IMG/VR virus record: IMGVR_UViG_3300042544_000888
Span: 1 to 43,350 of that record
Origin: a virus
Strand: one strand, 5' to 3'
DNA: 43,350 bases
Shown piece by piece: positions 3,519-38,483 of the stretch. A program made the position numbers and the translations under genes. The first letter of the stretch is position 1; every line of letters starts with the position of its first letter. Under the pieces are notes generated by a model. It was not told the DNA's origin. It was given only the letters and a program-made list of their open reading frames with translations, and did not search any database.

Positions 3519-3700
3519 TGCCAACATACGAATACTACTGCAAAAACGGTCACGAATACACTGAGGTAAGATCGATCTTTGTTGACCAGACGGTCACAAA
3601 GTGCTACCATTGTGGAGAAGAACTAATGCAACGCATAGGCAACATAGGAGTGACCTTTAACGGCGCAGGATTTTACAGGAATGATAGGAAAGAGAAATGA
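3518..3700 (+). CDS. FmdB-type zinc ribbon protein
   Basis: A 60-residue protein opening with MPTYEYYCKNGHEY, the signature start of the FmdB zinc-ribbon family. A second metal pair follows in CYHCG (about residues 29-33). Cys8 and His12 plus Cys29 and Cys32 can form one zinc site; the first knuckle uses C-x3-H rather than C-x2-C. FmdB proteins are small presumed regulatory proteins and are common in actinobacteria and their phages; the role in phages is not known. It overlaps both neighbours by 1-4 bases. Confidence 0.8.
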   Translation: MPTYEYYCKNGHEYTEVRSIFVDQTVTKCYHCGEELMQRIGNIGVTFNGAGFYRNDRKEK

Positions 3701-4077
3701 AAAACCAAATCAACAGGTTCAAGGAACTGCTTCAGAGACCGTTCACCGAAGCCGAGCAGGGCAAATACAAGCCACCAGCCGGTGTTCAGTCAGCGGCAAA
3801 GCGCGCACTCAAATGGATCTCTGAGGGCAAAGCCGGCAGTGGGTTCACTAGCGTGGGTCGCAGACGGGCCTCACAGCTCGCAAGCGGACAAGCAGTAAAC
3901 CGAGACACCGTTGCGCGAATGAAATCATACTTCGCAAGGCACGGAGTTGACAAGCAAGCAACCGGCTTCAACGCTGGAGAAAAAGGATTCCCATCACCTG
4001 GTCGCGTAGCCTGGGATGCTTGGGGTGGGGACGCAGGAAGAACCTGGGTCAACAAGATCAAGCTAGACGACAAGTAA
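3697..4077 (+). CDS. Conserved phage protein of unknown function (RMxSYFARHxVDK motif)
   Basis: A 126-residue basic protein. It contains the blocks PPAGVQSAAKRALKWI, SVGRRRASQLASGQ, RMKSYFARHGVDK and PSPGRVAWDAWGGDAGRTW. From memory this domain recurs as a stand-alone protein or as a module of head-associated phage proteins; I know no proven activity. The many Arg/Lys and aromatic residues would suit nucleic-acid binding, which is inference. It overlaps the FmdB gene by 4 bases and stays in the plus-strand operon rather than with structural genes. Confidence 0.7.
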   Translation: MKNQINRFKELLQRPFTEAEQGKYKPPAGVQSAAKRALKWISEGKAGSGFTSVGRRRASQLASGQAVNRDTVARMKSYFARHGVDKQATGFNAGEKGFPSPGRVAWDAWGGDAGRTWVNKIKLDDK

Positions 4078-4088
4078 CCGAAAGGTAA

Positions 4089-4832
4089 ATGGGCATGAAA
4101 ATATTATTCTTAGACTTGGAGACAAGTCCTAACCTCGCATATGTGTGGGGGCTTTGGGATCAGAACGTCTCAATCAACCAGCTGGCATCATCGACAGAAG
4201 TTATCTGCTTTGGCGCAAGATGGGCTGGCACTAAGAAAGTAATCTTTAAGTCAGTGCACCACGACGGCAAGAAAGCAATGCTTGACGAACTCCACGCACT
4301 CATGGAGGAAGCTGACGTTCTAGTGGGTTGGAACTCTCAAGCGTTCGACAGCAAGCACATCAAGCGAGAGTTTTTGGAGAACGGCTACCTGCCACCATCA
4401 CCATACAAAGAGCTTGACTTGATGCGTGTAGTCAAAGGGCAATTCAAATTCCCGAGCAACAAACTGGACTACGTATCACAGAAGCTCGGGGTTGGCGCAA
4501 AGGTAAAGCATTCAGGTTTCGACCTGTGGCTTGGCTGCATGGCCGGCGACAAAAAAGCTTGGGCCGAGATGAAGAAATATCAGATTCAGGATGTTGATCT
4601 GCTGATAGACCTTTATAAAATTCTTTTGCCGTGGATCAAGAACCACCCACACGCAGGGCTATACGAAGAAATGCCTGACGGCTGCCCAAACTGCGCCTCA
4701 AAGAACCTAGAACGCCGAGGCACTGCGCGAACAGTCGCAAACAGCTATCAGCGTTTCCAGTGCAAAGATTGCGGCAAATGGTCGAGAGGGAACAAACCAA
4801 TTGTTACGAAGATTTCTTACAAATCTATTTAA
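4089..4832 (+). CDS. DEDDy 3'-5' exonuclease with C-terminal zinc ribbon
   Basis: Predicted 3'-5' exonuclease of the DnaQ/RNase H superfamily, 247 residues. Exo I is FLDLETSP (D9, E11), Exo II is GWNSQAFDSKHI (D87), Exo III is YQIQD (Y164, D168), giving the DEDDy class. A zinc ribbon follows (C199-x2-C202 and C225-x2-C228), probably for DNA or protein contact. It may serve as the proofreading or end-trimming nuclease of the replication module. Two starts fit: ATG 4089, and ATG 4095, which is better placed relative to AAAGG at 4081-4085; both leave all motifs intact. Confidence 0.8.
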   Translation: MGMKILFLDLETSPNLAYVWGLWDQNVSINQLASSTEVICFGARWAGTKKVIFKSVHHDGKKAMLDELHALMEEADVLVGWNSQAFDSKHIKREFLENGYLPPSPYKELDLMRVVKGQFKFPSNKLDYVSQKLGVGAKVKHSGFDLWLGCMAGDKKAWAEMKKYQIQDVDLLIDLYKILLPWIKNHPHAGLYEEMPDGCPNCASKNLERRGTARTVANSYQRFQCKDCGKWSRGNKPIVTKISYKSI

Positions 4833-6125: not shown

Positions 6126-6133
6126 ATTATACA
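6126..6133 (-). promoter_or_regulatory. Late-type TATAAT element before the holin genes
   Basis: On the minus strand the endolysin stop is embedded in TTGTATAATAG. A TATAAT hexamer lies 38 bases before the holin ATG. It belongs to the recurrent late-region element described in the findings. No good -35 box is visible. Confidence 0.4.
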
Positions 6134-6738
6134 ACAGGCTTTTCTTTAGCAGCCAAACGAGCAGTCTCAACCGCCGCAGCTTGAGCGTCGTCATGTGTTG
6201 GCGCTGGAGCCGCAGGTGCGTCGTCGGTAGGAACAACAGGTGCGGTAGCGATAGCTTTTTCCTTAGCGATCAAAGCCTTGAAGAAAGCAATAGGCTCAAT
6301 GTAGTTCTTACCCATCTTGTCCCAGATGTGCTGCTTGCCCAAGCGAAGCTCCCAGTGAAGGTGCTTGCCGGTAGACATACCAGTGCTGGCCATCTTGCCC
6401 AGCGGAGTTCCTGCGGTGACCTTCTGGCCCTTCTTAACCTTCACAGTGCCATCACCCATGTGCGCGTAAAGAGTTGTGTAAAACTTGCCATCGATCTTGT
6501 GAAGCAAAACAACATAGTTACCGAAGCCGCCACCTACAGCGGTAGACTTCTTTGCCTCAAGGACCTTGCCGTCGAACGGCGCTTCGATCCAGCAAGGCTC
6601 GTGCTTTGACCAGATATCTGTTCCGTTGTGGTGCTTGCGCTCACCAGTTACAGGGTGAATTCGCATCCCCATCAAAGAGGTTGCTTTAAAATCTTTGCCC
6701 AATTTTCCGTCAATTGGGAACTGTGCCTTGGTAGTCAT
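6127..6738 (-). CDS. Endolysin, M23 family metallopeptidase
   Basis: Predicted zinc endopeptidase of 203 residues that cuts peptidoglycan cross-bridges at lysis. The M23 (lysostaphin/LytM) signature is complete: H37-x3-D41 in HHNGTDIW, H93 in YAHMGDG, and H126-x-H128 in GKHLHWEL. The fold spans about 10-160. The C-terminal 45 residues are an Ala/Pro/Asp-rich tail without a recognised cell-wall-binding domain. No signal peptide is visible, so export depends on the holin. The start has TAAGGA about 6 bases upstream. The stop overlaps the promoter-like box of the next gene. Confidence 0.85.
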   Translation of the reverse strand: MTTKAQFPIDGKLGKDFKATSLMGMRIHPVTGERKHHNGTDIWSKHEPCWIEAPFDGKVLEAKKSTAVGGGFGNYVVLLHKIDGKFYTTLYAHMGDGTVKVKKGQKVTAGTPLGKMASTGMSTGKHLHWELRLGKQHIWDKMGKNYIEPIAFFKALIAKEKAIATAPVVPTDDAPAAPAPTHDDAQAAAVETARLAAKEKPVV

Positions 6739-9764: not shown

Positions 9765-10627
9765 TAGACTTCAACCCAGCTCGCACTCAAACCAATAAGG
9801 CCATCACCGATAGCAGCCGAATAGTATTCAATCTCGGGGATTTGTCCAAACTCAATGGCGGTCGTGCCGCGACCAGAAATGAAACCCCCTTGCGCAACCG
9901 AAGAATTTTCTGGCAGGATCTGCGCAATCATGCCGGTAATGTTGACCTCTGCAGTGGCAGATGTGGCGATAAAGATTTCAACATAACTATATGTGTCACC
10001 CTTGAGCTTTAGGTTTGTTCTAGCGGTTGAAGTCGTTGGCAGCTTGGTCGGATTCAATGCGGTGTCCGCCGCTCCTGTTGCGCGAAGATAAGGCACAACA
10101 CGCACACCTGTGGAGGCACCAGTTGTCGGCCCATGCCAGCCAAAGTTCAGGGCATAATCTTTAGGAATAATGATAGTCAGCTTGTTGGTTGACTGATAAG
10201 CGCCAGCCATCTCGTAACTTGCGTAACGGATTGGGTAGTTATTCGACACATCTTCTTTAACAAAGGTGGGAGAGAAGCCTGGGGCCAGCGAAGGCCAGTC
10301 GCGCTCTGTAAGCATTGGGGCAGCCCAGTGTGGTGGCAAAATGTTCTGATCAATGGCGTAGGGGTCAATAAAGTAGAAAGGACCATTGCCGTAAAGACCA
10401 TCAGCAAAGTCTTTCAACACATAGATACTTGTGCCATCTTCGCTGTTCTGGTAACCTAGCCACGAAGGGTCGTAGGTTCTCTTAGAAGCCTGCGAACGCT
10501 TGACGCTACTGCGACCAGACAGGTAATCGTTCTGCACAACCTTGCCAGCATTAGCTGCCTTCAAGCCAGTCTTTGGTGCTTTAATCCAAAGCTGCTTATC
10601 CTTGTTACCAAAATATACGCCCGACAT
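9764..10627 (-). CDS. Minor tail protein (distal tail / Dit-like)
   Basis: A 287-residue protein directly downstream of the tape measure gene, where siphoviruses encode the distal tail protein. The N-terminus (VYFGNKDKQLWIKAP) and the Trp/Tyr-rich region up to about 100 resemble actinophage minor tail proteins that start by describing a planar ring. The second half is Thr/Ala-rich beta structure. Function is by synteny; homology was not tested. Confidence 0.6.
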   Translation of the reverse strand: MSGVYFGNKDKQLWIKAPKTGLKAANAGKVVQNDYLSGRSSVKRSQASKRTYDPSWLGYQNSEDGTSIYVLKDFADGLYGNGPFYFIDPYAIDQNILPPHWAAPMLTERDWPSLAPGFSPTFVKEDVSNNYPIRYASYEMAGAYQSTNKLTIIIPKDYALNFGWHGPTTGASTGVRVVPYLRATGAADTALNPTKLPTTSTARTNLKLKGDTYSYVEIFIATSATAEVNITGMIAQILPENSSVAQGGFISGRGTTAIEFGQIPEIEYYSAAIGDGLIGLSASWVEV

Positions 10628-13600
10628 TAGACAGAACCTCTCTGAGCAAGAACCTTATTGCCATCATTAACCGATTGAGCCAAGCGTGTGCCGTTAGCAT
10701 ACAAGTTGACTGGGCGGTCAATCGCTGCACGAAGAAGTGCGCGATCATCAGGACTCAAGTATACCACCGAAGAACCGCCACCAACCTGGGCGGTAGAAGA
10801 TTGAGCCGGTGCATACATCACGCGACTCTGGTTTAGCGAGTTCATAAAGTCAACACCGTAAGTTGCCACAGTCTTTGCAGACATAACAAACTCGCCGTTA
10901 GATAGACGCGCAGGTATCGAGTCCGATGTGCCAGTCCCTGGGCCGCTCACATAACCGCCGGTAGCAAAAGTATTCATTTGACCACTCTTGCTGTATGGGT
11001 TGATTAGCGAATATTTCTTGTCAAGCTTAGCCATTTCTGCTTTTATGCCAGACAGGTTTATAGATAGCTGATCAATTGCTCTAGGGCTCATAGCACCAGC
11101 GCCAATTCGTTTCTCCAAAAGAGAAGACTCAACAGCAAGGTTTTTGTATTTAGCTATTGCCTCTGTGCGCTCAGCGGCTTTTGCTAAGGCAGCTACTGTT
11201 GCAGGATCGATGATTGGATCCTTCTTCATGCCATTAACGGCAGCAGCAAATTCTTTCATTGCACGGGCGGCCTCGTCAAGACCCTTAATGCTAACAGTCA
11301 CAGTCTTAGGCATCTCAGTGATTACCTTCTTGTAGCTGTCAAAAGTGCCAACGTAGCCCTTAAGGTCAGATTCTGCAAAACCAATTTCCATTGCTTGCTT
11401 TTTAAATTCTGCCTTAAGCTTGTCAGCCTCTATCGCTACATCCTTCTGGGACTTGCCGCTGTTAAGCAGAGCCTGGAGATAAGGGATGTAGGTCTGCACA
11501 AGCCCAGAGAGGGCTGACCTGTTCTGGATTGCGGCATCAGAACCTGAACGCAAGTCAGTGCTCAAGTTATCCTGAGCTTCTTTCAACTGGTCAGTAGCCT
11601 CAGTTGTGCTGTTCGTGTTCTCCTCAAGCTTGGCTTGAATCTCCGCAGCACGCTTAGAGTCACCATACTTGATTGCGATGCTGAACTGATACTCGAGAAC
11701 GGTGCGGTTAGCCTTCAATGCGTTTAGCTGATCTTGAGCTTTCTTTACTGCCTTTCGAGCATCGTCAGCTTTCTTGCGAAGATCAGACCAGGCCTTGCGG
11801 ATGTTATCAAGTGCGGTGATCTTGCCATAGCGAATATCGAAAGCGGCTTGCATAACCTGACCGACTTCGCCAGCCCACTGAGTCAGTGTCTTAACGCTTC
11901 CAGTAAGCTCTTTAACTCCACCATCAAGTTCATCAACAACACCAAGCGCCGAGCTAAGGGAGGCTCTCAAGGCGCTTGTGTCAAGACCCTGAGACATTGC
12001 CAAAGCAATCTCACGAACTATCTGCTTTACACGCTCAAGAGCCTTCTGCTGGTTAAGCATGTCGACATAAACTTTTCCAGGGTTAGAGCCACGCTTGGCG
12101 TCTGGGTTGTTTAGGCTCCACTCTCGGAAATAGGCAGCAGCCTTTTTCCTAACCTTTTCAATTGCGCCATCAATCTTTGAAAGAGCCGCAACCTCTCCGC
12201 CACCCTTAGGGTCTCGAACAATTTCGTTTATAACCTGACTAAAGCTACTTCCATAATCCCGAAGAGCAGCCTCCGCCTGACTAAACAAACCAGGGTTTTC
12301 TTCAAGCCAACCATTGACCTTTTCGTTGCCAATAATTGCATTTAGCATCCACTCTTTAGTGTTCTGCCCAATCGCCAAGGTCTGGGTCTTAATGCTTTCG
12401 GTAACATCACCAGTAGCGCTCTTAAGGTTTTTGTTTGCACCAGTGACCTCCACAATTGCATCGTGCGCAAGATAGGTTTCTGCGGTAAAGTCTGCATACT
12501 GAACCTCAACCTTGCTAACCGCTTCTCCGGTTTTCTTCCAGATTTCTGTGTCTTGCGCAATTGCTTCACGCAATGACTGAACGCCACCGCCACTTTCAAG
12601 TAACTTAATTTTGTTAGCATCTTCAATCGCAGCAACAATCATTGCTACGGCTGAAACAACGGTTGCAGCAATTGCGACAACACCAAGAGCTTTTGAAACA
12701 CCGTTCATAACCTTTGAGCCAAATGTGGTTGCTGCGCTTGTTGCGGCAACGGTTTCCTGGTTCATTTCTTTTATGTTTCTTCTACGAGCTTCTGCTTCAA
12801 TGTTCTTTGTTCCAGCAGCTCTTGCGCTAGCAATTTCATTATCTATTTGTGCAACAGTGCCGCGCGTGATGGCAACAGCTTCGTTGTCAATTATTTCTAC
12901 AAAGAAACTCTTGTTTGCAAGCTTTGCCTGGCCAAGTTCGTCGATCTTGAAACGCTCAACCAAAGCGGCGTTTTGCATTTTCTGGTTTTCAATGGCGCGT
13001 TGGATGCTGTCGGCCTGAGCCCTGGCAACTTGAATATCTGCTTTCTTAGTGCTGGCTGCGGTAACTAAAAGAATGTTACTACTCTTAAGTAGGTCCTGTT
13101 CTTTAGCAAGACTAATGATGTTTCTTGCAGAGGCGATATCTCTGTTTTTAGCCAAATCAGCCAAAGCATCTTTCTGTGCCTTGAACTGAGCGCCAGCGTT
13201 GTAAGTAACCGGAGTCACAACACCCTTATCCTCAACCGTGCCCACTCCGCGCAAGCCACCACGAACCTCAACCAGATCAGAGTATGCGCCAGTTAGTTGC
13301 TTAATTCTGCCACTCAGACTGGTAATATCTGTCCCCGAAGCATTCATGCCATTAATCTGGGCAACTCTAAATGCGTAAATCTGCGCAATAAGTTTACTAA
13401 ATCCAGCAGTTGCTAAAGTCGCAGCAGCACCAATTGCGGTTATTGCCGCAGCTGCAGGCAAAAGACCCTGCGCCCACGGCGACTCCGAAGCGCCTTTGAG
13501 GAAGTTCAAGAACTCAGAACCAACTTTAACAGTGTTTTTAAGTGACTCTCCAAAGACCTTGCTGAATGAAGCAGAGAAGGAGTCAAGGTTATTTCTGAAG

Positions 13601-16600
13601 ATTATAAGTTGAGAGTCAAGGTTGTCGCTAGTCTTTGCGAAAGACTGTGACAAGAAGATACCTTCAGCATAAGATGCGTTGGCATCTGAAACCGCACGGT
13701 CAACAACGTTTAAGTTGTTAGCCAAACGGGTAAGTGTATTAATCTCTCGAGTCTCAACAATGTTTAACGAGTCAAAAGTTTTTGTAAGATCGCCACTTCC
13801 GCCAAGACCACCAAGCAACCTACGGAAAACATTGTAAGTTTCACCCTCGGTTCCCCACTGCTTGGCGAAATCCTTAGCAGACATGCCCGAAGCTTTTGCA
13901 AAATTATCGAGCTCAGAGCCGCCCCTAGAGACCGCACGGTCAATGTCGGCAAACACACGGGTAAATACACCACGCGCCTGTTCGGCCTGAATACCCACCG
14001 ACGCCAAAGCTGTAGACATACCAATAATTTCTTCAGGCATGAAACCGGACTGTTCAGATGCTGCAGCAATTGACTCTGCAAGTGTCAGGATTTCAGACTC
14101 TGTAGCAACTGCGTTAATACCGGCGTAGGCTACAGCTGAGCCGAGGTTTGCAAATTGCGAAGAATCAATGTTTGCAAGCTCAGCTATGCGACCAAACTTC
14201 TGTGCAACAGTATCCGCGCTAATTGACGTAATAGCCGAGAACTCTGCAACAGTTTGAGTGAACTGCTTAATGCCACCAGCACTAATACCCATCTGGGCAC
14301 CGAGGGTAGCAATTTTTGAAAGATCCTCAAAGGTTATAGGCAGAACCTCAGACAGGCCGATGAACTGATTACGCATATCAACAGAAGCGTCCTCAGCGAG
14401 CTGCATTGCACGCTCAACAGAAGTAAAAGAAGTTTCAAACTTTTTGTAAGCCCCTGTGGTGCCGAGGATTTGTCTGGTTAAACCAAACAGTTGCTGTGAA
14501 AGGTTTTGGTAGAAGTTTCCAACATCATACAAGGCGTAGCGAGCAGTAACCCACTGGTTTACTTGTTCGCGGTTAGCTTTCTGCACGGCCTTTGAGGCCT
14601 CGAGTTCTGCCTTAAGATTCGCTTTGATCTGCGCAGAGAACCGCTTGCCAGCCTGGCTTCTCTCGAAGTCGGTATCAATCTGTTTGCGAGTATTGAGCCT
14701 AACCTGCTCCTGCATCTGCTTGTAGCGACCCTCGGACAAGGTTCTCTCAACAACGGCAGCCTCGTTCTTGCGACCGGCGTTTGTAAGCTTGATAATCTCA
14801 TCATCAAGCTTGGAAACCTCGTCACGAACAGCCTTATACTCCGCAGAATCCGGCGCACTCAAGCGAAGCTTTGCAAGCTCAGTTCGCTTATCCTTGATAG
14901 CAGACTCTCGAGCAATAAGCTGAGTTGCAATCTCAACCTGCTGAGCGTCGCTCTGAAGTAGCCTCAGCCTATCTGTTGCTATCTTATATTCATCTCGGGT
15001 AAGACCAGCAAGCATCCTATTGTATTCTGACCTTGCGTGGAATGCCCTCTGCGCATTAGCAACAGCCCTATTCGCCATCGGATCTTCATCAGCTGCGCCA
15101 GAAGTCACAGGGGGTTGGCTAGGTGGCTTACCAGAGCCACCACCAGAAGCTAAAGGCTTTCCAGGCAAACCAGAAGCTGGAATAGTTATCTGCTCCATAC
15201 GCAAAAGCGTTTCGGCAAATGTGTCAAAGAAGTCCTGAACAATAAGGCTCATAGCCGCATCGGCTGCGGCATAGTGGGCTGGAAGCTCACCAGTTCCAGG
15301 AAGTTTTACCTGAGAACCCTTAGTTGGATCCATTCTGAAAACATTAGAATATTTCGACAACCATTCCTGGTGCTTTAGATTAGTAGATTCAGCAATACCA
15401 GTAATAAGCTTTTGTAAGCCAAAGCCCTTGCCGGTTGGGCCAAGTATGCTTGCAATTTCTGGATTGTCTTTTGCTTTCTTGAATTGCTGGGTTGAATCCC
15501 ACACGCCCTGCTTCAGGTTGGTCGGGGTTTTAAACTGTGACAGCCCCCTAGCGGCAGACATTTCGTTTACAAACTTAATCAATTCACCAATGTTGCTGCC
15601 CTCTGCGCTTGCAACATTGCTGCCAGTTATTGGAATGTTAAGATTTTGAAGAAGCTCAAGTAGGCCAACAAGAGATGCGGTCTTTTTCCTAAGCATCTGG
15701 AAGTTTAGTTCCGGATCTTCTATGTCCCCAAGTTTGCTTGGGTCTAAGCCAAGAACCTTTGCGCGAGCAGCTAGATCCTCGGCTGACTTGGCTCTTGAAC
15801 GGTAGCTCTCGTCGGTCTCTCCGCCAAACCTTTTACCCATCTGCTTATAGTCAGAAGGGATGTGTATGAAGGAAAAGATTTCCTCAAAGTCGCCGGCAGC
15901 GTTCCTGAAAACTGCACTAAGTTCATTTACTGACTGTTTAGTGTTTCTGTTAAACTCTGTGTCCAGCGCAACTGAGAAAGGCTTACCCTGACGGGCTGAC
16001 TCTTCCTGTGCCGCCAAAAGCTTTGTCTTGGCATCATCAAGCCAGTTAGTTTGCTTTAAGGCAGCCGCTGTGCTGGCCGATGGTGCTGTTGTCGAGGTGT
16101 TTCCTTTAGTTTCAGCAACCGCAGCCTCTTCGATCTGCCCCTCAATTGCCTCGACCTTTTTGGCAACGCGCTTCTGCACGCTAGCTTTAATCTCAGGCTT
16201 AGACTCAACAACCGCAGGCGCTCCAGAATTACGCCTAGCTTCCTCAGCGTGTGCCTCATCCCAGGCCTTGTCGAAGGCTTCTGCGTCTTTACGGATCCTG
16301 TCGCGGCGCTGAGCAATTAACCTAGCCTGCGCCTGGCCGTATGCTTTGTCTGCAGCTTTTTCTTGAAGAGTTCTTGGGCCTTTATCTCCAGCAGCCTCTT
16401 CTTCTTGCCTGCGACGAGCAATAGCAACACTCCGCTGAATATCAATGTTAGGCTTTGCTGGCGCATTAGCTGCAGCCCTGGCTTCTTCAATTGCACGCTG
16501 ACGCGCAAGATCGTTAGGGCTTGGCTTGTCTAGCTTTTCTTCCTTAATTCTTTCAACAAAGCGAATCGCGTAGGCAAGGTCAGTTGCCTCTTTCATGATA

Positions 16601-18348
16601 CCTTTCCAGGGGTATCCGTTATTGGTGGCGGTCAGCTCATTAAACGCTTGACCTTTTCTTGACTCTAGGGTGGGCGGCGTTATGCTTGTTAGTTTTTTTA
16701 GAATTGCAGGGTTTGAAAGAACCTGGTTTACAATAGAGAATGTTGCGGCCGGAACACTAAGGTCTCCGGCTGCCGATGGCGATATTTGTATGTCTTGGCG
16801 TCCAAGTCCCGTAGGGAAACTTGCGCTCCTAGCCGCTCTGAGCACATCCTGAACGTTATATCCGGCTGGGCCGCCTTCTGAGACGCCTATGTTTTCGCCA
16901 AATTTTTTTGAAAATGTGTTAGGCGCTAAAGCCGCAAAAGTTGATGGATGGAGTCCAGCTTTAAGCATCTCCTGATAAATAAACTTTGCAACATCTTCAT
17001 CAACATAGCGACGCCCAATGTTTGCATCATCTACCTTGCCAGGTTGTATTGCATTTGGCGCATAACCATAAACCGGGTCTTCTTCAAAAGTATTAAATCT
17101 TTCCGCAGAGGCACTGTTGGCTCTTGTTAAAGCCCTTTGAAGCACGTCGTCAAAAAAGCTTGTCTGTATTTCTTCAAATCTTCTTCTGGCCCTGTCTTCG
17201 CCTCCAGGCTCATCAATTACCTTCTCAAGTTTTTCAACGAAGGAATCAATAACTTTATCGCTGGCCTGCTCGATACCTTTGGGGAATTGCTTGGCTTCAT
17301 ACTTTGAGGCCTTAAGCCTGTCTTCTCTTTTAATGTTTCCAATGCCCACAGTTGGTAGAGGGTTTTCAGCAAGAACTTTGTTGTATGCGCTCAGGAACGT
17401 TGCAGCATCAATGATTGGCTTGATTCCAGTCTTGACGTTATCTTCGTTAAGCACGTCAGCAAACTTGATGTTTTTAACTTTTTCAAGTTCTGTCTCTGTA
17501 AGCACAAGGCCGTCGTTGATTTTGTTTAGAATTACTGCAAGATCAACCGCTCCTTGCTGTAGGTCTTCTGAGACTTTGCCCGAGCTATCTAGTTTATCCA
17601 TGACCGTGTTTGGTAGAAGCTCAAATTCGTCTTTAATTTCAACCACAGCCACTTGAACGGCATCCGCAAGGGCATTGTTTATTTTCTTTATGCTGTCGGA
17701 AATTTCACCTGATCCAAAAGCGAACTCTTCAACAGCGTCATTAATTTCCATAATTGACGCGCTAAGAAGATCTCCGCTTTCACGAAGATCGTCAAGTTCA
17801 CGTTCGCTTACAAGGCCATCGCTCAGGGCATCCTCAAGAGCTGAGTTAAAGTCTTTAAGTTCTTTTTCAACCTGATTGTTCTGGCCTTTGGCGTAAGACT
17901 TTATCTTTAAGTTGTCTGGTCGAACAAAACGGCCAACGCTAAAGTCTTGGTTTGGGTCGTCAAAAATTTCTTTGGCAATTCTTTGCCTAAGGTTCAGCTG
18001 TCGGGTAAGTGCATCATTTGTTTTTTCTGTAAGCCCAAGACCATCTCTTAGTCTCGCATAAAACGCATTTGCTGCTGGGCCCGGGGTGGAAAGAGCGCCA
18101 AGCATGCTGAAGTCCTCATTGAACTTACTAAGCTCCTCTTGGGCTGTCGATACACTACCAACAAGTCTTTGAAGTTTTGCTTGGACCTTATCAATGTTAG
18201 TTACATTGATTTCGATGTTCAAATCCTTGAGCATCTTTTCGCCAGTTGTGCCAAGCCTGCGAGCTACGTCGTCTAGTTTTTTGGCTGCGGCTTTTTCGTC
18301 AATGTTAAGATCGACGCCAATGCTTATGCTTAAGTCTTTGTCAGCCAA
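10627..18348 (-). CDS. Tape measure protein with an internal DnaQ-like exonuclease-type domain
   Basis: Giant 2573-residue tape measure protein that would set tail length and line the tail tube. The TP901-type core starts near residue 1290 (SFTSVERAMQLAEDASVDMRN, then the repeated helical LSEVLP...TVAEFS pattern), followed by hydrophobic segments (a LLPAAAAITAIGAAATLATA stretch and, further on, a KALGVVAIAATVVSAVAMIV stretch). Unusually, about 785-1045 looks like a DEDDh exonuclease domain: ALDTEF with D796/E798, a central ITGSNVASAE block (N911, E916), and H1025-x4-D1030. It is bounded by an Ala/Glu/Arg-rich linker and a Gly/Pro/Ser linker (about 1056-1080). The start is TTG with AGGATGG upstream. 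Core role is known for the family; the nuclease activity is conjecture. Confidence 0.85.
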   Translation of the reverse strand: MADKDLSISIGVDLNIDEKAAAKKLDDVARRLGTTGEKMLKDLNIEINVTNIDKVQAKLQRLVGSVSTAQEELSKFNEDFSMLGALSTPGPAANAFYARLRDGLGLTEKTNDALTRQLNLRQRIAKEIFDDPNQDFSVGRFVRPDNLKIKSYAKGQNNQVEKELKDFNSALEDALSDGLVSERELDDLRESGDLLSASIMEINDAVEEFAFGSGEISDSIKKINNALADAVQVAVVEIKDEFELLPNTVMDKLDSSGKVSEDLQQGAVDLAVILNKINDGLVLTETELEKVKNIKFADVLNEDNVKTGIKPIIDAATFLSAYNKVLAENPLPTVGIGNIKREDRLKASKYEAKQFPKGIEQASDKVIDSFVEKLEKVIDEPGGEDRARRRFEEIQTSFFDDVLQRALTRANSASAERFNTFEEDPVYGYAPNAIQPGKVDDANIGRRYVDEDVAKFIYQEMLKAGLHPSTFAALAPNTFSKKFGENIGVSEGGPAGYNVQDVLRAARSASFPTGLGRQDIQISPSAAGDLSVPAATFSIVNQVLSNPAILKKLTSITPPTLESRKGQAFNELTATNNGYPWKGIMKEATDLAYAIRFVERIKEEKLDKPSPNDLARQRAIEEARAAANAPAKPNIDIQRSVAIARRRQEEEAAGDKGPRTLQEKAADKAYGQAQARLIAQRRDRIRKDAEAFDKAWDEAHAEEARRNSGAPAVVESKPEIKASVQKRVAKKVEAIEGQIEEAAVAETKGNTSTTAPSASTAAALKQTNWLDDAKTKLLAAQEESARQGKPFSVALDTEFNRNTKQSVNELSAVFRNAAGDFEEIFSFIHIPSDYKQMGKRFGGETDESYRSRAKSAEDLAARAKVLGLDPSKLGDIEDPELNFQMLRKKTASLVGLLELLQNLNIPITGSNVASAEGSNIGELIKFVNEMSAARGLSQFKTPTNLKQGVWDSTQQFKKAKDNPEIASILGPTGKGFGLQKLITGIAESTNLKHQEWLSKYSNVFRMDPTKGSQVKLPGTGELPAHYAAADAAMSLIVQDFFDTFAETLLRMEQITIPASGLPGKPLASGGGSGKPPSQPPVTSGAADEDPMANRAVANAQRAFHARSEYNRMLAGLTRDEYKIATDRLRLLQSDAQQVEIATQLIARESAIKDKRTELAKLRLSAPDSAEYKAVRDEVSKLDDEIIKLTNAGRKNEAAVVERTLSEGRYKQMQEQVRLNTRKQIDTDFERSQAGKRFSAQIKANLKAELEASKAVQKANREQVNQWVTARYALYDVGNFYQNLSQQLFGLTRQILGTTGAYKKFETSFTSVERAMQLAEDASVDMRNQFIGLSEVLPITFEDLSKIATLGAQMGISAGGIKQFTQTVAEFSAITSISADTVAQKFGRIAELANIDSSQFANLGSAVAYAGINAVATESEILTLAESIAAASEQSGFMPEEIIGMSTALASVGIQAEQARGVFTRVFADIDRAVSRGGSELDNFAKASGMSAKDFAKQWGTEGETYNVFRRLLGGLGGSGDLTKTFDSLNIVETREINTLTRLANNLNVVDRAVSDANASYAEGIFLSQSFAKTSDNLDSQLIIFRNNLDSFSASFSKVFGESLKNTVKVGSEFLNFLKGASESPWAQGLLPAAAAITAIGAAATLATAGFSKLIAQIYAFRVAQINGMNASGTDITSLSGRIKQLTGAYSDLVEVRGGLRGVGTVEDKGVVTPVTYNAGAQFKAQKDALADLAKNRDIASARNIISLAKEQDLLKSSNILLVTAASTKKADIQVARAQADSIQRAIENQKMQNAALVERFKIDELGQAKLANKSFFVEIIDNEAVAITRGTVAQIDNEIASARAAGTKNIEAEARRRNIKEMNQETVAATSAATTFGSKVMNGVSKALGVVAIAATVVSAVAMIVAAIEDANKIKLLESGGGVQSLREAIAQDTEIWKKTGEAVSKVEVQYADFTAETYLAHDAIVEVTGANKNLKSATGDVTESIKTQTLAIGQNTKEWMLNAIIGNEKVNGWLEENPGLFSQAEAALRDYGSSFSQVINEIVRDPKGGGEVAALSKIDGAIEKVRKKAAAYFREWSLNNPDAKRGSNPGKVYVDMLNQQKALERVKQIVREIALAMSQGLDTSALRASLSSALGVVDELDGGVKELTGSVKTLTQWAGEVGQVMQAAFDIRYGKITALDNIRKAWSDLRKKADDARKAVKKAQDQLNALKANRTVLEYQFSIAIKYGDSKRAAEIQAKLEENTNSTTEATDQLKEAQDNLSTDLRSGSDAAIQNRSALSGLVQTYIPYLQALLNSGKSQKDVAIEADKLKAEFKKQAMEIGFAESDLKGYVGTFDSYKKVITEMPKTVTVSIKGLDEAARAMKEFAAAVNGMKKDPIIDPATVAALAKAAERTEAIAKYKNLAVESSLLEKRIGAGAMSPRAIDQLSINLSGIKAEMAKLDKKYSLINPYSKSGQMNTFATGGYVSGPGTGTSDSIPARLSNGEFVMSAKTVATYGVDFMNSLNQSRVMYAPAQSSTAQVGGGSSVVYLSPDDRALLRAAIDRPVNLYANGTRLAQSVNDGNKVLAQRGSV

Positions 18349-36965: not shown

Positions 36966-38483
36966 CTAGTTCCTTGTGTTTACGTGCTGGATTCTAACTA
37001 CTTTGTCGTCGTCACTCTTTGAACCATAGATAATCAGTTCTGGGTGCTCGTTGTCTGGCTCAACATTGAACTTAGCAAACAGTTTGACTAGACTGTTCAG
37101 GTCTGTAACTTGTCTGTAATTTGCAATTGTTGCGCCACGTTTTGCTAGTGTTACTAGGCCACGAACAATCCAAGCCCAGGCACTTATGCGGTCTGCATCT
37201 AGGTTGCAGTCCATTTGCCTGAACTCGATTGTTCCACGGTTTGTGAACAGTGGCGTTGCATTTACTGTTCTTGGCTTGTCCGGCGTTAATCTCGGGTTGT
37301 TTTTTCTGATAGCTGATCCGATATATGACACTGGAAAATCCATTGCATAACTTGTGTTTTGCCGTCCGGCAATTGCTGACATGATGTGTTCTAGCCATTT
37401 GTATGCTGCAAACACTTGACCTACTTGGTTGGTTGTCAAGTCTGCTGCAAACACGTGGATGTGCGTGCCCGCACTATCATTCATCTCTGCATCTTCTTCG
37501 TTCAGGTTTTTACATAGCTCATACATTCCGCTGTGTTTCATCCTTTGGACACCGCCGACTGTGCGATATTCTGCACTTTCGCCACTGCTGCAACTTGAAC
37601 CACTGCAGTGATCTGGGTCGTCGTTTTGTTGCTCGCACCAGTCACAGTCACAGCTGTGATATGTGCAGTCTTCACAGTCACAATCGCAGTCGTCTGAACC
37701 GCTATATGATCTTAGTGAACCGTCTTCGCCTTTCTCGAAGCCGTTTGGTGCTTTGACACCTCTGCAGTCTGGAACTTCGATCTCGAAGCCATAAGTTCTG
37801 GCCGTGAGACCGTTGCCCAGCTGGTTTTGCAGTTCCACTAGCTGTGCTTCAGTTTCGGTTGGTCTTGGTTTTGGTTTGTTTTCAAACACTTTTTCAAGAC
37901 CCGTGCTACTCTTTTTTACTTCGTTATATCTTTCCAGCTCTTTGACTTTTTCTTTGTATGCGCCTATTGCCCATACTAAGTCTTCTTTGCTGATCACTAC
38001 TTCTTGCATTATTTTGAAGAACACGTAAGTGCTGTGTTGTGCTAGCGGTTTTTCTGCAACTTGTATATCTTCTACATACGCTTCGTAGTTGATGTTCATA
38101 CTCAATGATTCTGGGTATATTGAACTGCAAGCATATACTTCGTTTGATCCTATGCTTTGACTGCTTCTTGTCGCATCTGTAATTGCTTTCATGTATGCCA
38201 TCAAAGCAATCACTTGCGCTCTGTTGTTTTGCATATTTTGCAGGGTTACTGGTTCTGTGTTGCCTTGGAAAAATCCATGACCACCTAGCTTTAGATAAAG
38301 TTGCCTGCTTCTTGTTTGTATGAACCAGTCATTTTCATCTTTGTTTCCCGCAGCCTCGTTTATGTCCGCTTCGAGCCTGCTGTAATCCCACATTGGGCCC
38401 CAGCGCATAACTCCATCATCTACGCCGCGACTGTTTGTGGTGTTTGTTGTGTTGTTTCTAGCATTTATGTATACTAGAGTCAT
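36966..38483 (-). CDS. Amidoligase (glutamine-synthetase-like fold) with Cys/Asp-rich insert
   Basis: Predicted carboxylate-amine ligase of 505 residues, of the glutamine-synthetase-like amidoligase family. Motifs: YGFEIEV (231-237, metal-binding E234/E236), EDGSL (253-257), GTHIHV (339-344, H341/H343) and RGTIEFRQMD (416-425, E420/R422). Residues 1-225 are an unidentified N-terminal region. Unusually, 9 cysteines and many Asp lie between 266 and 298, inserted after the EDGSL motif; they could bind metal. Amidoligases couple ATP to amide formation on a peptide or small acid. A glutamine amidotransferase, the expected ammonia source, lies divergently at 39095. Known: family chemistry. Inferred: cooperation. 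Substrate unknown. Confidence 0.8.
   Translation of the reverse strand: MTLVYINARNNTTNTTNSRGVDDGVMRWGPMWDYSRLEADINEAAGNKDENDWFIQTRSRQLYLKLGGHGFFQGNTEPVTLQNMQNNRAQVIALMAYMKAITDATRSSQSIGSNEVYACSSIYPESLSMNINYEAYVEDIQVAEKPLAQHSTYVFFKIMQEVVISKEDLVWAIGAYKEKVKELERYNEVKKSSTGLEKVFENKPKPRPTETEAQLVELQNQLGNGLTARTYGFEIEVPDCRGVKAPNGFEKGEDGSLRSYSGSDDCDCDCEDCTYHSCDCDWCEQQNDDPDHCSGSSCSSGESAEYRTVGGVQRMKHSGMYELCKNLNEEDAEMNDSAGTHIHVFAADLTTNQVGQVFAAYKWLEHIMSAIAGRQNTSYAMDFPVSYIGSAIRKNNPRLTPDKPRTVNATPLFTNRGTIEFRQMDCNLDADRISAWAWIVRGLVTLAKRGATIANYRQVTDLNSLVKLFAKFNVEPDNEHPELIIYGSKSDDDKVVRIQHVNTRN

Follow-up and report, generated by a model that had tools for sequence, protein, structure and literature searches.

The DNA analysed here, hereafter the window, is a 43,350-nucleotide stretch (IMG/VR record IMGVR_UViG_3300042544_000888) from an uncultivated, actinophage-like virus that belongs to a siphovirus clade. 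On its minus strand, a gene with a TTG start encodes a 2,573-residue protein that matches the PHROG tape measure family phrog_17594 (E = 5.6e-107) and, above the family cut-off, the Pfam family PhageMin_Tail. Tail chaperones are encoded upstream and minor (distal) tail proteins downstream, and we assign the product as the tail tape measure protein on family homology and gene position. Its conserved core starts at position 1235 of the stop-to-stop frame, about residue 1232 counted from the TTG codon. The main features are as follows.

10627..18348, minus strand: tape measure protein gene, TTG start, 2,573 aa
14656..18348, minus strand: N-terminal extension, residues 1 to ~1231, ahead of the conserved core
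10627..14655, minus strand: ruler part, from the conserved core (PhageMin_Tail) to the C-terminus, of a length class as in relatives
15151..16053, minus strand: DEDDh exonuclease-like domain, residues 766–1066, with a confident model for residues 766–1050 (15199–16053)
4089..4832, plus strand: separate 3′–5′ exonuclease gene of the replication module (phrog_403; Pfam RNase_H_2, E = 1e-10)

Judged by its sequence matches, the last of these genes means that the tape measure domain is not this phage's sole enzyme of the 3′–5′ exonuclease kind. The exonuclease match at 4089–4832 begins at profile position 63 of 321, and the N-terminal part of this protein may lie in the preceding open reading frame (3697–4077) or be missing. 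Derivation of the tape measure domain as a copy of this replication exonuclease was considered but is not supported, a comparison of the two giving no match. Elsewhere in the window, downstream of the tail genes, a peptidase has a gene of its own (6127–6738, minus strand) that matches peptidase regions within several PHROG tape measure families; this enzyme type is free here and fused elsewhere. A few kilobases beyond the terminase gene, a 505-aa protein (36966–38483, minus strand) matches Amidoligase_2 (Pfam, E = 4e-11) and the PHROG amidoligase annotation. Promoter and terminator scans of the window gave chance-level results only, and genome contigs scanned with the whole tape measure and the tail protein alignment yielded no host and no prophage.

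Conservation and predicted fold of the domain

Relatives were reached only by way of the major tail protein: viral contigs were searched first with the window's copy and then with eight aligned sequences of this protein, giving 72 related loci; a search with the core obtained 62 tape measures, the window's included, plus two that are cut off. Eight records with seven distinct sequences, the window among them, share the domain described here and are denoted group A (alignment A3). The catalytic motifs of the window copy, whose positions had been given correctly by a first-pass annotation made from the letters alone, are these.

15955..15963, minus strand: Exo I motif D796-x-E798, within ALDTEF (794–799), invariant in 7/7 group A domains
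15922..15924, minus strand: E809, on strand 2, invariant in group A
15601..15618, minus strand: Exo II motif N911-x4-E916, within GSNVASAE (909–916), with Asp at 916 in 5/7 homologues
15259..15276, minus strand: Exo III motif H1025-x4-D1030, within AHYAAAD (1024–1030), invariant in 7/7

Group A domains are only 23–33% identical to the window copy, and just 12 columns are invariant: D796, E798, E809, P831, G867, G874, K889, G909, N928, H1025, A1027 and D1030. The Exo I and Exo III ligands make up four of these 12, a coincidence with a chance probability of about 1.5e-6. E809 apparently corresponds, in a match made by eye, to the Glu of the DnaQ-type ‘IEIgAV’ motif that is invariant in RNase T, DnaQ and ExoX. 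The Exo II motif is more variable, with N911 present in six of the seven domains (Gln in homologue L043) and position 916 occupied by Glu in the window and in homologue L055 and by Asp in the other five. On the core tree the window groups with L055 as its sister (support 84), so that the Glu probably reflects a single change; their domains have diverged to about 33% identity with the acid at 916 retained. The altered Exo II residue that had led the first-pass annotation to suggest an inactive or binding-only domain is real and shared with L055, but inactivity is unlikely as the state of the family, given Asp in 5/7 homologues and an acid in the other two.

Conservation within the extension is concentrated in this domain. 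BLAST matches within group A were found for the domain in 21/21 pairs and for the ruler in 21/21, but for the segment preceding the domain in only 5/21 and for the following linker in 4/21. The domain is thus, by sequence comparison, the only part of the extension recognisably conserved across all group A members, and selection inside the extension appears to work mainly on it. Over four domain pairs, dN/dS (Nei–Gojobori) is about 0.11–0.29, with dS near saturation in two of them.

An AlphaFold2 model of the window domain built on alignment A3 (pLDDT 82.6, pTM 0.84) predicts an RNase H-like α/β fold of DEDDh (RNase T/TREX/DnaQ) type for residues 766–1050, with the DxE motif on the first strand, Exo II at a strand–helix junction and H-x4-D starting the last long helix. 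The span of 785–1045 proposed initially was rightly located and slightly short. Foldseek against the PDB returned 15 matches at E ≤ 0.001, all of them RNase T, the best with E = 1.6e-4 and probability 1.00. Below these rank exonuclease I, REXO2, exonuclease domains of polymerases and a TREX1 homologue. TM-scores against RNase T reach only 0.36 (by query) and 0.48 (by target), modest values that we attribute to a core with added helices. The resemblance to RNase T extends to the DxE and H-x4-D motifs, the strand-2 Glu and, with Glu in place of Asp in the window copy, Exo II; in contrast, the window domain has an N-x4-D/E spacing where RNase T has N-x3-D, lacks a significant sequence match to it, and is part of a tape measure whereas RNase T is a free enzyme. 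Among viral models, the best matches (E about 9e-4) are phage ‘polymerase III epsilon’ proteins, such as the DnaQ-like proteins of Gordonia phages GRU3 and GMA5, which are stand-alone proteins of 251–290 aa with no tape measure fusion.

At the level of sequence, single-sequence searches with the domain alone were negative in Pfam, PHROGs, PDB sequences, viral contigs and 50,697 phage records, and profile comparisons gave no known DEDDh family in Pfam or the PDB and did not reach significance with hhalign against RNase T, DnaQ and ExoX. Because no sequence-level homology to the named families is demonstrable, we term the domain DEDDh-like by fold and motifs and do not place it in RNase T, DnaQ, TREX or ExoX. 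A Pfam match to Imm30 (E = 0.011, below the cut-off) was dropped, as it spans only a helix and the first strands at the domain start.

A second set of tape measures, sister to the first and denoted group B (eight distinct sequences in eleven records), has at the corresponding place a domain that looks different and bears the motifs ALDIES, HxxxxSD and AHDPxxD. All DEDDh ligands are invariant in group B, including an Exo II Asp in 8/8 domains. The AlphaFold2 model (pLDDT 82.0, pTM 0.85) matches TREX1 (E = 7e-5) and DnaQ epsilon (E = 6e-3) best in Foldseek, although profile searches link it to none of the known DEDDh families and the group B domain, unlike these enzymes, sits in a virion protein. 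Comparison of the group A and group B profiles gives a weak match (E = 2e-4, probability 45%) that aligns Exo II on Exo II, and common ancestry of the two domains is suggested. One group B member, a 3,603-aa tape measure on a 37-kb record (L079:4077-14885; IMGVR_UViG_3300043470_000314), has about 1,878 residues ahead of its conserved core, the DEDDh domain included.

The bare three-motif pattern is weak evidence by itself, occurring in 2.2% of shuffles of the 2,573-aa protein; a chance arrangement of residues in a helical tape measure could draw on this frequency and on the lack of a Pfam match. The same pattern was found in 0 of 44 related tape measures without the domain, where the first-pass annotation had suggested looking for it. 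The homologues, a confident α/β model and specific DEDDh matches for two separate families leave a chance origin effectively refuted, and the seven group A sequences, the AlphaFold2 model and the RNase T matches bear out the proposal of a DEDDh exonuclease-like domain in this tape measure.

The extension, the ruler and their history

The core was mapped onto each tape measure, with positions counted from the preceding stop codon. It starts at residue 52–286 in the 38 complete tape measures without the domain and at residue 885–1978 in those with it; every long-N tape measure has a DEDDh domain and no short-N one does. From core start to C-terminus, complete proteins span 966–1555 residues without the domain and 1342–1726 with it. 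The length of the ruler is alike in both classes, and the extension is a discrete addition to a ruler of unchanged length. Because core-to-C-terminus length is alike with and without the domain, the domain does not interrupt the ruler and instead sits within the large N-terminal extension. The discrete modular insertion envisaged initially is upheld in being modular and absent from ordinary relatives, but the absent unit is the whole extension (~1,000 aa in the window) and not a module of ~260 residues.

This changes how tail length should be read. The tape measure rule is 0.145–0.15 nm per residue (PMC5099701), by which 2,573 residues would give a tail of about 386 nm, whereas the 1,342 residues from core to C-terminus in the window, plus 100–250 residues of ordinary N-terminal part, predict about 215–240 nm. 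Tail length should best be estimated without the extension, from roughly 1,450–1,600 ruler residues instead of 2,573. The first-pass annotation was right to shorten the estimate, but the whole extension should be subtracted, not ~260 residues. The common practice of reading tail length directly from tape measure length would fail for these phages.

The DEDDh domain is absent from the tape measures (1183–1635 aa) of six cultured relatives, Jojan60, Amigo, Musetta, Pioneer3, Yappy and Pan2, which have a homologous core and are rulers only; their hosts are Stenotrophomonas, Microbacterium, Arthrobacter, Curtobacterium and Pseudanabaena. Among cultured phages, Stenotrophomonas virus Jojan60 (ON045087.1, L091) gives the closest tape measure match, although most other close matches infect actinobacteria; a wrong host label or a host jump is conceivable. 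On the core tree, group A forms one clade (support 100) and group B another (99). Presence of the domain needs one change, on a tree that unites A with B at a support of only 66; the domain was probably gained once, with no loss seen.

This history bears on whether the domain could be inactive, a DEDDh fold retained as a relic or spacer only for bulk or chaperone binding. The Exo II Glu of the window and the highly variable length of the extension would suit such a role, but the placing of ligands among the few invariant columns at 23–33% identity, the low dN/dS and the absence of loss in any descendant all oppose it, and we regard it as unlikely.

Proposed delivery at infection and competing roles

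On balance we lean towards a tape measure that is a ruler of the usual kind, prolonged at its N-terminus by a large segment bearing a DEDDh 3′–5′ exonuclease-type domain as cargo, delivered at infection. Tail assembly would then involve just the ruler part; the extension would lie at the neck end, beside the DNA terminus, and enter the host with the leading DNA end; and in the host the domain would trim or degrade nucleic-acid 3′ ends. An active 3′-end nuclease, delivered with the leading end of the genome, is the most likely identity of the domain. The Exo II residue of the window copy counts against an active enzyme; a Glu replacing the Exo II Asp can weaken catalysis. The negative profile comparisons with known DEDDh families and the modest TM-scores also weigh against this reading.

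Delivery of the extension is extrapolated from other phages. The tape measure of 80alpha is a trimer whose C-termini lie at the baseplate and whose N-termini contact the tail completion protein, which caps the DNA end (PMC11661146). If this layout holds here, the extension would be at the neck end and emerge just ahead of the DNA. The initial suggestion that the domain is ejected ahead of the DNA may thus stand, but as a late event and not the first, since the domain lies in the N-terminal third-to-half of the protein. The lambda tape measure touches proteins of the inner membrane as injection proceeds, and the membrane-bound defence nuclease SNIPE binds tape measures; in Bas14, mutations in tape measure residues 100–150 escape SNIPE variants (PMC13190303), suggesting that N-terminal parts of tape measures can be exposed to the host interior. 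The main physical objection to delivery is that three folded domains of ~32 kDa hardly fit a tail tube of 4 nm (PMC9022992), so that passage would require unfolding and refolding, staggering or cleavage.

The same neck-end location (80alpha; PMC11661146) would also suit a DEDDh pocket that grips the 3′ end of the packaged genome and pilots it while cleaving little or nothing. RNase T crystal structures, as their titles state, hold single-stranded DNA and 3′ overhangs, and the Glu shared by the window and L055 could shift the balance from turnover towards binding. However, the full acid set in 5/7 group A and 8/8 group B domains goes beyond what binding needs, the DNA end in 80alpha is capped by another protein, the tail completion protein, and the domains are mostly acidic (pI 4.8–8), so we consider such a DNA-end holder possible but rather doubtful.

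Action in the producing cell at assembly, for example in trimming nucleic acid around tail or head joining, with delivery incidental, seems improbable to us. Tape measures are late products made in quantity, as such a role would have it, and the sequence contains no proof of delivery; but a separate exonuclease gene is present, and fusion to a tape measure would be a costly route to a cytoplasmic enzyme.

For the delivered nuclease that we favour, proofreading is not a likely purpose, because the replication module has its own exonuclease gene (4089–4832). We think that early host takeover or counter-defence, acting on host RNA or DNA ends or on signalling oligonucleotides, is likelier than trimming of the phage's own ends.

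The known roles of tape measures are to set tail length, to form pores and to carry enzymes that act on the cell wall. Those with built-in lytic or peptidase domains resemble the window protein in carrying an enzyme, but they act on the cell wall, whereas the domain here is of a nucleic-acid-processing type and lies ahead of the ruler core. In the open full-text literature, judged mostly by titles and abstracts, we found no report of a tape measure fused to an exonuclease, DnaQ, DEDDh, RNase T or nuclease domain; the DEDDh reports from this search concern separate genes. Enzyme-bearing tape measures and DEDDh enzymes are each known, and their combination appears to be new.

Tentatively, then, a clade of actinophage-like siphoviruses may inject, as part of the tape measure, a catalytically active 3′-end nuclease that enters with the tip of the genome and acts in the first moments of infection, with host nucleic acids or nucleotide-based immune signals, for example, as possible targets. 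That SNIPE recognises tape measures at the membrane shows this to be a contested place and time (PMC13190303). A point mutation in a single ligand would be a clean genetic test of tape measure action inside the host, and, with a conserved nucleic-acid enzyme in the tape measure, the tail would become a means of delivering early effectors.
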